Positions 14,051 through 24,990 of a DNA stretch of 64,000 nt are shown piece after piece (position 1 is the stretch's first letter; each line of letters starts with the position of its first letter). The notes under the pieces were generated by a model. It was not told the DNA's origin. It did no database searches and saw only the letters and a list, made by a program, of their open reading frames with translations. The DNA is from Kitasatospora xanthocidica (GTDB taxonomy: Bacteria; Actinomycetota; Actinomycetes; Streptomycetales; Streptomycetaceae), in assembly GCF_014656195.1 (NCBI RefSeq), contig NZ_BNBY01000009.1, positions 124,001-188,000 of the forward strand, written 5' to 3'. Both the position numbers and the translations under genes were made by a program.

Positions 14051-14986
14051 TCACGGGCGGCCGTTGGTCTCCACCAGGTCGGACGGGTCGGTGTTGGCGC
14101 CGCAGAGCAGGACGGCGACGCGCTCGCCGTCGGCCTGGTCGAGGGCGGCGAGAGCGGTGGACGCCGCGTGCTCGACGGCGATCCGGCGGTCCTCCCAGAG
14201 CTGCCGACGGGCGCGCACGATGGCCTCGTCGTCCACCAGGACGGACCGGACTCCCCCCTGGGCCGCCGCGCCGACGGCCAGCGCGGTGGCGCGACGCGCC
14301 CCGAGCGCGTCCTGGGCCACCGAGGCGACCGGGACGTCCACCGGACGGCCCGCCGCCAGCGCCGCGTTGAGCGCGCGGCTGCCGGTCGGCTCCACCGCGA
14401 GCACCCGGACCCCGTGCTCGCGCGCCGCCACGGCCACACCCGCGAACAGCCCGCCGCCGCCCACCGACACCACCACCGTGTCCAGGCCGGGCACCCGGGC
14501 GCGGATCTCCGCCAGGACCGTCCCCGCGCCGGCGGCGATCAGCGGGTGGTCGTACGCGTGCGAGGCCAACGCCCCGCTGCCCGCCGCGAATTCCTCGCAC
14601 GCGGCCAGCGCCTCGGCGTACTCCCGGCCCGCCAGCCGTACCTCGGCGCCGTACGAGCGCAGCCGCGCCAGCTTCACCGGGGAGGCCGTCTCCGGGAGGA
14701 ACACCGTTGCCCGGACGCCGAGTTCGCGTGCGGCCCAGGCGCAGGCCAGCCCGGCGTTGCCGCCCGAGGCGATGGTGACCCCGGCATCCGGGAGGGTGCC
14801 CGCCTCGGCGTGCGCGAGCAGGAAGTTCTGCGCGCCGCGCGCCTTGAAGCTGCCGGTGTGCTGCAGGAACTCCAGTGCCAGCCAGGTCCGTCCGCCGTCG
14901 TCCCCCGGCGCCACCGCCACCGGGCGCACCCGCCCGGCGATCCGCTGCCCGGCGGCCTCGATCTCGTCGTACGTCAGCTGGTCCAT
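14051..14986 (-). CDS. PLP-dependent threonine/serine dehydratase-like enzyme
   Basis: 311 residues, fold type II PLP enzyme. The PLP lysine is in SFKARGAQN (about residue 50). The phosphate/cofactor loop is ASGGNAGLA, and the Gly-rich cofactor loop [11 protein letters not shown] lies near 160. The family deaminates Thr or Ser to 2-oxo acids; the short length without an ACT domain suggests an unregulated catabolic form. The ATG at 14986 was chosen for its AAGGAG site at eight bases. It faces the EamA exporter leader across about 105 bases. Confidence 0.88.
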
Positions 14987-15092
14987 CGCGTGCTGCTCCT
15001 TCGCCGGGGGCGTTGCTTCGGTCACGGCCGACGGTACGTCGCACCGCCGGACGGCGGAAGGAACACCGGCCCCGCGGGCGTACGCTGATCAC

Positions 15093-15128
15093 GTGCGTCT
15101 CGTGATCCTCCCCCCGCCGGCCCGCTAG
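15093..15128 (+). promoter_or_regulatory. Candidate leader peptide (MRLVILPPPAR) upstream of the EamA exporter
   Basis: An 11-codon frame starts at GTG 15093 and ends with TAG at 15126-15128. It contains three consecutive proline codons near its end, a sequence known to stall ribosomes. A TACGCT hexamer at 15081-15086 would place a transcript start at or next to the GTG, i.e. a leaderless reading frame. Its stop codon lies within the first of two hairpins before the exporter gene. The attenuation function is inference. Confidence 0.45.
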
Positions 15129-15180
15129 CGGGCGGCCACTCCACCCACCCCGGCCCCGCGGGACTCTCCCGCAGCCGGGG
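15120..15180 (+). promoter_or_regulatory. Tandem hairpins in the EamA leader region
   Basis: Hairpin 1 is the 14-base perfect palindrome at 15120-15133, which contains the leader stop codon. Hairpin 2 spans 15148-15180: an outer 7-bp stem (15148-15154 with 15174-15180), a small internal loop, an inner 6-bp stem (GCGGGA/TCCCGC) and a CTC loop. Hairpin 2 is terminator-like and lies 64 bases before the start codon. Confidence 0.55.
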
Positions 15181-15243
15181 CGATGACCGCCGCCCGCGCA
15201 CCCCGCGGACCCGAACCGGCGAACCATCGTGGAGTACCGACGC

Positions 15244-16116
15244 ATGACCTCCCACACCGCCGTGCCCTTCCGGCACGGCCTCCTGTCCATTTCCGCCGCC
15301 GCCGTCGCCTGGGGTGCGGGCGGCGCCGTGGCCGCGCTGCTGATGCGCACCAGCGGCCTCGGCCCGGTGGCCGTCTCCTGCTGGCGCTTCGGCGTCGCCG
15401 CGCTCTGCCTGGCCCTGCTGCCCGCGCGCGGACCCCGGGCCGTACGGCGGGGCACGGCCCGGTGGGGCGCACCCGTGCTGACCGGGCTCGGTCTGACGAT
15501 CAGCCAGTGCGCCTACTTCGGCTCCGTGCGCTACGCGGGCCTGGGGCTGGGCACGCTGATCACCATCGGCGCCGGGCCGGTGCTCACCAGCCTCGGCGCC
15601 CACCTGCTGCTCGGTGAGCGCCTCACCCGCCGAGCGCTCGCCGCCGTCACCCTCGCGCTGGCCGGGCTCGCCCTGCTGGTCGCCGCCCCGGCGGCCGGCC
15701 CGCGCCCGGCGCTGGGCGTCGCCCTGGCCGTCCTCGCGGGCGCCGGGCAGAGCGGCCTCACCCTGTGGGCCCGGGGCGGCGGTTCGGCCCGGGCCGACAC
15801 CGGCGCCTTCACCACCGGACTGCTCTGCCTGCTCCCGCTCGCGGCCGTCCAGGGCGTCCTGCCGACGGCGGGGGAGCCGGCGGTGACGGGCGGCGCGCTG
15901 CTGTTCCTGGGCACGGTGCCCACCCTGCTCGCCTACCGCTGGTACTTCACCGGCCTGGCCGCCGTGCCGGGCACCACGGCGGCGGTGTTGGTGCTGCTGG
16001 AGCCGGCCACCGCGGCGGCGATCGGGGTGCTCTTCCTCGGTGAGCCGGTCACGGCGGGCCTGGCGGCCGGTTCGGCGCTGCTGCTGGCGGCGATCGCGGT
16101 GCTGACCCGGGCGTGA
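15244..16116 (+). CDS. EamA/RhaT family exporter (DMT superfamily)
   Basis: 290 residues with ten hydrophobic helices in two EamA halves (about 10-140 and 150-288). GLGLGTLITIGAGPVLTSLG and the second-half counterpart VPGTTAAVLVLLEPATAAAI are typical. These exporters move amino acids or other small metabolites outward. The ATG at 15244 is preceded by GGAG. The divergent neighbour is a Thr/Ser dehydratase, and a leader peptide with hairpins lies upstream, which together suggest amino-acid-responsive control. Confidence 0.88.
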   Translation: MTSHTAVPFRHGLLSISAAAVAWGAGGAVAALLMRTSGLGPVAVSCWRFGVAALCLALLPARGPRAVRRGTARWGAPVLTGLGLTISQCAYFGSVRYAGLGLGTLITIGAGPVLTSLGAHLLLGERLTRRALAAVTLALAGLALLVAAPAAGPRPALGVALAVLAGAGQSGLTLWARGGGSARADTGAFTTGLLCLLPLAAVQGVLPTAGEPAVTGGALLFLGTVPTLLAYRWYFTGLAAVPGTTAAVLVLLEPATAAAIGVLFLGEPVTAGLAAGSALLLAAIAVLTRA

Positions 16117-16280
16117 CGGGCGCCAGCCGGGCGTGACCGGGCGGGAGTCGGGCGTGACCGGGCGGGGGTCGGGCGCGCCGGGACCGGCGTGACCCGGCTC
16201 CCCGGCACGGCTCCCGCATGGCCACCCGGGCGGGCGCCCTGTGGTCGCAGGGGGCGGGCGGCCGTGCTGGGGTGGTCCGC

Positions 16281-23964: not shown

Positions 23965-24990
23965 TCAGAGGACGGTCTCGGCCTCGAGGTAGCGCTCCTG
24001 CGGGACGGTCTTCAGCTCGGCGACCGCCTCCGCCAGCGGCACCAGGTTGATGTTGGTGCCCTGCAGCGCGGTGATGTGCCCGAAGGCGCCCTTGTGGACG
24101 GCCTCGACGGCGTGCCAGCCGAAGCGGGTGGCGAGCACCCGGTCGTAGGCGGTCGGGGTGCCGCCGCGCTGGGTGTGGCCGAGGATGACCGGGCGGGCCT
24201 CCTTGCCGAGGCGGTGCTCCAGTTCGCGGGAGAGCTGGGTGGCGATGCCGGTGAAGCGCTCGTGGCCGTAGATGTCCTTGGTGCCCTCCTCCCAGTGCAT
24301 GGTGCCGGGCTCGGGCTTGGCGCCCTCGGCGCAGACCACGATGGCGAACTTCTTCTGGCGGTCGAAGCGTTCGCGGACGACGGCGGTGAGCTGGTCGATG
24401 TGGAACGGGCGTTCCGGGACGACGATGGCGTGCGCGCCGGCCGCCATGCCCGCGTTGAGCGCGATCCAGCCGGTGTGCCGGCCCATGACCTCGACGACCA
24501 TGACCCGCTGGTGGGACTCGGCGGTGGTCTTCAGCCGGTCCAGTGCCTCGGTGGCGACCGAGACGGCGGTGTCGAAGCCGAAGGTCACGTCGGTGGCGGC
24601 GATGTCGTTGTCGATGGTCTTCGGCACGCCGACGATCGGCAGGCCCGCGTCGCTCATCAGCTTGGCGGCCTTCAGGGTGCCTTCGCCGCCGATCGGGATG
24701 ACCGCGTCCAGGCCGAGGTCCGAGCAGTACTTCTTGGCCCGCTCGACGCCGTCCCGCAGGTGGCTCGGCTGGACCCGGGAGGAACCGAGGATGGTGCCGC
24801 CCTGGGCGAGGATGCCGCTCACCGAGTCCAGGGTCAGGGGGCGGTGGTGGCCCTCCAGGAATCCGCGCCAGCCGTCCTCGAACCCGATGATCTCGTCGCC
24901 GTGGTCGACCACCCCCCGGTGGACCACGGAACGGATCACCGCGTTCAGGCCGGGGCAGTCACCGCCGCTGGTCAGCACTCCGATACGCAT
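23965..24990 (-). CDS. pfkA: 6-phosphofructokinase
   Basis: 341 residues. TSGGDCPGLNAVIRS opens the nucleotide site, GGEGT (101-105) and PKTIDNDI (123-130) form the active site, and MGRHTGWIAL and HTQRGGTPTAYDR bind the sugar phosphate. Residue 104 is Gly, as in ATP-dependent enzymes, while residue 124 is Lys, as in pyrophosphate enzymes; this mixture is known in actinobacterial PFKs and usually means ATP use. It commits fructose 6-phosphate to glycolysis. Confidence 0.95.
   Translation of the reverse strand: MRIGVLTSGGDCPGLNAVIRSVVHRGVVDHGDEIIGFEDGWRGFLEGHHRPLTLDSVSGILAQGGTILGSSRVQPSHLRDGVERAKKYCSDLGLDAVIPIGGEGTLKAAKLMSDAGLPIVGVPKTIDNDIAATDVTFGFDTAVSVATEALDRLKTTAESHQRVMVVEVMGRHTGWIALNAGMAAGAHAIVVPERPFHIDQLTAVVRERFDRQKKFAIVVCAEGAKPEPGTMHWEEGTKDIYGHERFTGIATQLSRELEHRLGKEARPVILGHTQRGGTPTAYDRVLATRFGWHAVEAVHKGAFGHITALQGTNINLVPLAEAVAELKTVPQERYLEAETVL

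Follow-up and report, generated by a model that had tools for sequence, protein, structure and literature searches.

A conserved proline-containing leader peptide ahead of an EamA exporter gene in Streptomyces and related soil bacteria: a candidate leaderless translational attenuator

Introduction

What could a reading frame as short as MRLVILPPPAR, with its run of prolines close to the stop codon, be doing ahead of an exporter gene? The question is raised by a locus in 64,000 nucleotides of Kitasatospora xanthocidica DNA, the whole of which we call the window. A first-pass annotation had proposed there a leaderless leader peptide, a palindrome holding its stop codon, a terminator-like hairpin and an EamA gene, in the geometry of translation-dependent attenuation. 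A regulatory peptide of about 12 residues is easily overlooked in annotation, and we find one beside a single exporter at nearly every locus examined. Our preferred reading, to which we give a probability of about 0.63, is that the exporter is governed by a translational attenuator run by a leaderless leader peptide. The leader would probably act as a switch, ribosome pausing on its prolines uncovering the exporter start site.

Results

The locus in the window

The features of the region are collected in Table 1. The full reading of the leader is GTG CGT CTC GTG ATC CTC CCC CCG CCG GCC CGC TAG, so that the GTG at 15093 does open the proposed peptide, whose coding sequence is conserved in relatives, and the palindrome around its TAG is perfect. 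Both strands of the window hold a single match to the leaderless pattern xPP[AV]x*, at 15093. The distance from TACGCT to the GTG would place the start of the message at the leader start codon, and the transcript is thus probably leaderless, as had been suggested from the box at 15081. A TAnnnT box stands 6-8 nt upstream of the start in 115/115 loci of the comparative set described below (most often 7 nt, in 88; 23 loci have 6 nt and four have 8), although the box also helped to pick the start. The RNA from 15093 to 15244, the folding of which had been proposed as a check, is more stable than its shuffles (z = -3.06; equalled by 3 of 200).

Table 1. Features of the leader and exporter region, in window positions
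Feature	Position	Strand	Basis or remark
-10 box TACGCT (TAnnnT)	15081-15086	+	Read from sequence; 6 nt 5' of leader GTG
Leader ORF MRLVILPPPAR*, GTG start	15093-15128	+	Sequence, conservation, synonymous changes
Pro codons CCC CCG CCG, codons -6 to -4 (stop = -1)	15111-15119	+	
Helix 1:2, GCCCGC-TA-GCGGGC enclosing stop codon	15120-15133	+	Sequence and alignment of relatives
Segment 2, GCGGGCGGC	15128-15136	+	3' arm of stop hairpin; alternative partner segment 3
Anti-SD ACTCCAC	15138-15144	+	Complementary to GTGGAGT 15229-15235
Hairpin B, CCCCGGC...GCCGGGG	15148-15180	+	Conserved, without T tract
Helix 3:4	15182-15228	+	Folding and alignment of relatives
Segment 3, GCCGCCCGC	15189-15197	+	Pairs with segment 2, or joins helix 3:4
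Exporter Shine-Dalgarno (SD) region GTGGAGT	15229-15235	+	Sequence, folds
EamA-family (DMT) exporter, 290 aa from ATG	15244-16116	+	ORF list, Pfam EamA

The protein encoded 3' of the leader scores 86.5 bits against Pfam EamA (cut-off 28.2), as expected from the annotation, and a search of solved structures gave no relative at E 0.001. Its start is likely ATG 15244; GTG 15229, the gene start in the ORF list, belongs to the exporter's SD. A 21-bp tandem repeat of 3.7 copies, CGGGCGTGACCGGGCGGGAGT, lies across the 3' end of the gene (16108-16182). The divergent gene at 14051-15025 is a serine/threonine dehydratase (NCBIfam PRK08246, 361.3 against a cut-off of 331). This neighbour, named in the annotation, stands for the window but not as general context: in 57/66 named loci, mostly Streptomyces, its place is taken by a second EamA-cluster gene some 1.1 kb 5' of the leader, the Pfam check resting on one representative. 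Downstream, the named loci carry a Pyridox_ox_2 gene in 47/66 cases and a GntR/aminotransferase regulator, which we take to be of the MocR type, in 45/66. The three conserved neighbour clusters scanned in these 66 loci include no proline-related gene. A gene of the EF-P family is present in the window's genome.

The leader is found at nearly every exporter locus fetched

At the DNA level, 45 of the 61 genomes of the window's genus (its own genome included) gave some match at E 0.001, and only 14 gave a long orthologous one. An alignment of 13 relatives gives the consensus MRxxILPPP[AV]R*. The codons show synonymous changes, and one locus (L002) has TGA for the TAG stop while keeping the same hairpin. 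A covariance model at E 0.01 matched in 20/70 genomes, 17 of them strongly and beside close EamA orthologues, one of which (in G022) is incomplete; the weak matches inspected in G060, G054, G010, G022 and G035 showed no leader.

The protein reaches further. EamA was matched in 58 of the 70 genomes, 42 of the rows being just 42-48% identical, and the upstream regions of 40 of these were fetched (L016 was already in the set, and row G050 is outside the count). A leader of the form M...VL[P/A/S]PP[AV]x* follows a TAnnnT box at 39/40 of these gene-first loci; the fortieth is interrupted by a contig end. At E 1e-40 the exporter was found in 99/147 genomes of the order and in 40/246 of the class, in 8/104 genera, and all 54 loci fetched from Streptomyces and other families (the window's own excluded) have the leader. 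In a distant family, f21, 8/10 further loci have the canonical leader, one of the exceptions reading SPPSAS (L162) and the other having an altered frame (L155). Judged from these loci, a proline-containing leader ahead of the exporter is kept in Streptomyces and related soil bacteria; its absence from relatives had been named as grounds for abandoning the idea.

Two loci depart from the intact arrangement. In genome G027 (L052, L014; G027:C1, about 1295300-1297089), the fourteenth of the long orthologous matches, the promoter and leader lie ~1.6 kb from the remaining element and EamA. Apparently DNA has been inserted at the CTAG that contains the leader stop, so that in nature an exporter has become detached from its leader. 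In G022 (L011/L035; G022:C65, about 24062-24589) the leader and attenuator are intact very near an EamA remnant, of which only the final third is matched (residues 187-289), and it appears that the exporter is broken while its switch persists.

The exporter follows at nearly all in-frame leader-pattern loci

In the opposite direction, a pattern of a TAGGGT box, ATG and LPPPAx-TGA was searched in a collection of 84,980 species and matched 81 stretches, of which 80 (all but L245) were examined. The frame holds in 76/80; the other four, among them a Syntrophus and a Geobacter, look like chance matches. EamA follows the leader in 69 of the 76 in-frame loci (E 1e-10), a closer Streptomyces query adds four more (73/76), and in the other three just 31, 181 and 182 nt remain downstream. 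Across the 66 named relatives' loci (516 kb) the leaderless xPP[AV]x* pattern occurs solely at the EamA leader and at none of 406 other genes; since these loci were picked via the leader pattern, the zeros elsewhere are the informative part.

The idea of a wider regulon was tried and rejected. When 70 genomes were searched with a codon-degenerate VLxPP[AV]x* pattern, 35 matches were obtained; the reversed pattern yielded 15. Five of the 35 end in TGG, with no stop, and 24 are known EamA leaders; the remaining six comprise four tails of longer frames and two true leaders, one before a truncated EamA-like frame (L150; tblastn E 6e-13) and one at a contig end (L151).

Coding selection on the leader

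Residues were counted in 115 unique loci found without the leader pattern; the large set numbers 181 loci, and the other 66 were excluded because they had been obtained with the pattern that fixes LPPPA and TGA. The leader finder accepted a frame only if it had xPP with 1-3 codons after it and was preceded by a TAnnnT-like box, which also served to choose the start. Eight of 189 loci had been dropped from the large set (L011, L066, L147, L155, L157, L162, L197, L233); L155, with its changed frame, and L162 deviate from the motif, and in L011 the leader is present and the EamA gene incomplete. Only identical stretches were removed, so that some named loci are of the same species as others in the set. 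Numbering the stop as -1, Pro occupies -5 in 115/115 and -4 in 114/115 loci, as the finder demands of Pro-Pro; Pro, Ser or Ala is found at -6 in 115/115, Ala or Val at -3 in 113/115, Val or Ile at -8 in 109/115 and Leu at -7 in 96/115. When the 115 loci are joined in a minimum spanning tree, single-step codon changes are synonymous in 93 cases and non-synonymous in 34, where a synonymous share of 31% is expected (nominal p = 1e-22). At positions -8, -7, -3 and -2, which lie outside the finder's demands, the counts are 42 and 28 (p = 1e-5). By these counts the putative regulatory codon run near the stop is maintained by coding selection.

One may ask whether the proline codons are kept for their RNA, a C-rich anti-SD facing the exporter SD, rather than for the nascent peptide. 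There is a precedent in the leuA LEU element, in which a run of leucine codons is described as pairing with the SD (PMC1262725, seen in excerpt), and in some lineages the leader codons pair well with the SD. Overall, the leader's own pairing with the SD is slightly better than that of synonymous recodings (p = 0.003), but with genomic codon usage the gain is small (-12.2 against -11.6 kcal/mol) and it is reversed in f21; moreover, third codon positions vary freely while the residues are fixed. With the leader codons so weak overall as an anti-SD in the recoding test, we rejected them in that role and regard this explanation as improbable, a conserved nascent peptide being the reading we prefer.

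The use of codons within the run is uneven. CCT makes up 94/177 codons at -5 in the full set and 54/115 in the less biased one, against 3.2% of Pro codons in the genes of the 66 named loci. Rare T-ending codons are likewise greatly enriched at -8 (GTT, 76/148 Val) and -7 (CTT, 73/158 Leu) over neighbouring-gene backgrounds of 1.8% and 1.4%, and no such enrichment is seen at -6 and -4. The clade of the window has CCG at -5 in 15/15 loci and no CCT, so the CCT preference is not universal. In E. coli, CCU and CCC give slow diproline synthesis (PMC8129111, seen in excerpt).

Alternative RNA structures

Between the leader and the exporter lie segments that can pair in two ways. Helix 3:4 joins GATG 15182-15185 to CATC 15225-15228 and CGCCG 15188-15192 to CGGCG 15217-15221, with an inner CCGCG/CGCGG, and in 2/13 relatives both sides have changed at alignment columns 102/150. 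Hairpin B is conserved with some compensatory changes. The SD mask is paired in 87.6% of cells in the 13 relatives, with a two-sided change in no pair. Both alternative folds have covariation scores above 500/500 shuffles, a result that relatedness alone can yield. The covariation comes from hairpin B together with helix 3:4. Since helix 2:3 is nearly invariant in this close set, it shows no covariation of its own. No Rfam family matched anywhere in the window at the gathering score.

Swapping partners between loci gave a divided answer. Spacers pair better with their own SD than with swapped ones (interior-SD pairing; p = 0.003 within clade, 2e-5 between), and the mask is built from different segments in different lineages. 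When helix 2:3 was put through a swap test, the overall outcome was negative (-22.37 for its own pairing, against -22.48 after a same-clade swap and -22.76 after an other-clade one), and within the window's clade its own pairing was slightly worse than swaps. Compared with shuffles, the excess in strength of this helix is weak for the window clade and for f21, and in Streptomyces there is hardly any (mean p 0.48).

We also observed that the 5' bases of the leader, GTGCGTC (15093-15099), could form a helix with GACGCAT (15239-15245), where the exporter starts. This helix appears in the RNAalifold consensus of the 13 relatives and in the window's best fold, and in these models it may mask the exporter start too.

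The hairpin at 15148-15180 had been called terminator-like. This we do not uphold, because it has no T tract; it sits inside the alternative helix, and a scan of 14900-15400 found no intrinsic terminator. A different output is conceivable, in which the position of the ribosome decides whether RNA polymerase stops within the 115-nt spacer, by intrinsic or Rho-dependent termination; a mechanism of this type has been proposed for CruR. Several S. lividans leader peptides, some without T tracts, have been interpreted as attenuators (PMC8079986, in the text available), and in f21 a hairpin is followed by CTTCTTCG. Such transcriptional attenuation is nevertheless unlikely in our view, given that SD partners match their own SD and that SD opening tracks the ribosome beyond shuffles (see below). 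Exposure of the exporter SD is the better-supported output, to which a transcriptional component may add.

Ribosome position and opening of the SD

The annotation had suggested that stalling on the proline run could alter the folding of the RNA, an idea that a partial-folding calculation supports. In this calculation the cost of opening the SD was followed in 170 loci against the assumed ribosome edge, in nt from the end of the stop codon. In the window, ACTCCAC pairs with GTGGAGT on top of helix 3:4 in the naked RNA and with the edge at 0 or +9, the best fold at 0 being already SD-masked. Moving the edge to -3 lets segment 2 pair with segment 3, which leaves the SD nearly free.

Over the 170 loci, opening costs 8.0 kcal/mol in naked RNA. 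The cost drops to about 6.0-6.3 for edges between -6 and 0, rises to 7.1 at +6 to +9, is still above the minimum at +12 and returns to 6.3 by +24, beyond the reach of a ribosome on this leader. The gene-first subset of loci shows the minimum as well. The usual distance from the P site to the ribosome edge is 15-16 nt. The low-cost edges thus correspond to a P site at about codons -7 to -5, and the minimum coincides with the expected Pro-Pro stall position. By this calculation, then, the SD would open most easily with the edge about where a Pro-Pro stall puts it.

The cost at +9 minus that at -3 is 0.97 kcal/mol in the pooled loci and -0.01 in shuffled spacers (8 per locus). By group it is 1.57 in win (null maximum 0.39), 3.42 in f21 (0.62), 0.98 in strep (0.18) and 0.38 in kit (0.27; a small effect), and in misc it is 0.68, within the null (maximum 1.08). 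The pooled set and four of the five groups thus exceed their shuffles, although the difference is above 0.5 in only 56% of loci against 25% of shuffles, and the window result shifts within a few nt of edge. With the edges expected of a stalled ribosome (-2 or +1) and of one at the stop (+10), the raw costs are 6.10 or 6.28 against 7.00 over all loci; the window's clade alone gives 4.91 or 5.58 against 6.14.

In the window itself the cost is 3.7 kcal/mol at -3 to -1, 4.0 at 0, 4.4 at +1, 6.8 at +2 and 7.2 at +9, falling to 5.3 at +10, 3.4 at +11 and 2.4 at +12 (naked 5.7); edges from -30 to -15 cost ~4.0, so the minimum there is not sharp. Because of the drop at +11 and beyond, a ribosome at the stop could itself expose the SD if its edge extends that far, and the switch falls inside the uncertainty of where the edge lies. 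Another scheme would be a constitutive leaderless frame that delivers ribosomes near the exporter start by coupling or re-initiation, nothing stalling conditionally, and in which a terminating ribosome would expose the SD. For the window's clade, edges of +11 to +12 do open the SD about as well as the Pro-Pro stall or better, but the other four groups differ: there +11 and +12 are costlier than the stalled -3 to +1 and fail to reopen it. Coupling would also leave unexplained why Pro-Pro keeps a constant spacing to the stop codon, and would have to work across leader-exporter spacers of 95 to about 300 nt (375 in one row). We hold it to be very improbable. In the translational attenuator that we favour, our confidence was lowered by the edge sensitivity of the window, the negative swap and weak strength of helix 2:3 and the small effect in kit.

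Discussion

Four things are established at the level of sequence: that the leader is there, that its coding is conserved, that it goes with this exporter, and that complementary segments are present. From these one may sketch how the switch would work. The transcript would begin at the leader start codon, so that ribosomes load on the leader immediately. With no stalled ribosome, helices 1:2 and 3:4 would form and ACTCCAC would hide the exporter SD. A ribosome held on the Pro-Pro codons would disrupt helix 1:2 and leave segment 2 free to pair with segment 3 around hairpin B, opening helix 3:4 and the SD mask; the freed SD would then allow translation of the EamA exporter. In this sketch, leaderless transcription, the stall and the stall trigger are what we infer.

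What might the leader sense? The conserved core (V/I)(L)(P/S/A)PP(A/V)x-stop suggests that it is peptide-bond formation at prolines, in a specific nascent-chain context. Candidate triggers of the stall would be weak EF-P activity, a shortage of prolyl-tRNA or an inhibitor that the pump may remove. More tentatively, and at somewhat less than even odds, the leaders may represent a new family of leaderless arrest peptides of 11-15 residues, present in at least four actinobacterial families, that sense the joining of prolines and switch a dedicated exporter. Joining would be sensed at the core through EF-P, tRNA-Pro or a metabolite acting on the PTC, and the fold over the SD would have been rebuilt from differing segments in each lineage, with the logic from stall to open SD retained.

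In GC-rich bacteria such a leader would serve as a naturally occurring readout of Pro-Pro pausing, and it offers a route to the signal and the substrate of an EamA pump in an antibiotic-making group. Were the trigger a compound acting on the ribosome, self-protection would become a candidate role for the pump gene.

Among known systems, ermC-type translational attenuators have four segments and keep their SD masked until a ribosome stalls within the leader. There the stall is drug-dependent and the leader is SD-led, whereas here the leader is a leaderless Pro-Pro one. Another point of comparison is HisL*_Lux, a reporter built on an attenuator leader. In it a polyproline run reports ribosome pausing (PMC8129111; this and the papers below are cited from partial text); it is man-made, and the Pro-Pro exporter leader would be its natural counterpart.

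Leaderless short frames with a residue run that control what lies downstream through ribosome speed are described for the mycobacterial polycysteine ORFs (Canestrari et al. 2020, as reviewed in PMC9031893). Those respond to cysteine; here the run is Pro-Pro, in a V-L-x-PP-A context, and the target is an exporter. In S. lividans, leader peptides (leuL1/2, trpL1/2, ilvL, thrL, metL, alaL) are short, mostly described as leaderless and followed by hairpins, some without a T tract, but their residues correspond to the amino acid that the downstream function deals with (PMC8079986). In the available part of that source, none of the eight listed has a proline run and none precedes an EamA gene. The actinobacterial leuA LEU element also has a codon run in an upstream ORF and alternative pairings that involve the SD; it differs in its leucine run, its pseudoknot and its biosynthetic gene (PMC1262725), and the word proline is absent from the accessible text of that 2005 actinobacterial survey.

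Prolines themselves act in other leaders. Salmonella mgtL, the short leader of mgtA, contains proline codons through which deletion of efp raises mgtA mRNA, but these are described as interspersed, the gene encodes a Mg2+ transporter and the host is an enterobacterium (PMC6460261). The CruR uORF, with its C-terminal RAPP, has near its stop a Pro-Pro motif that is needed for downstream expression; unlike our leader it encodes a long copper-sensing protein and acts through Rho, and an efp knockout has no effect there (PMC9426467). Among the matches listed from the open-access literature, seen in part, none describes the present leader; subscription journals lie mostly outside it, so this absence is no proof. 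In its working the leader resembles known leaderless and erm-type attenuators, while the run of residues, the context conserved around it and the gene it targets appear, to our knowledge, to be new.
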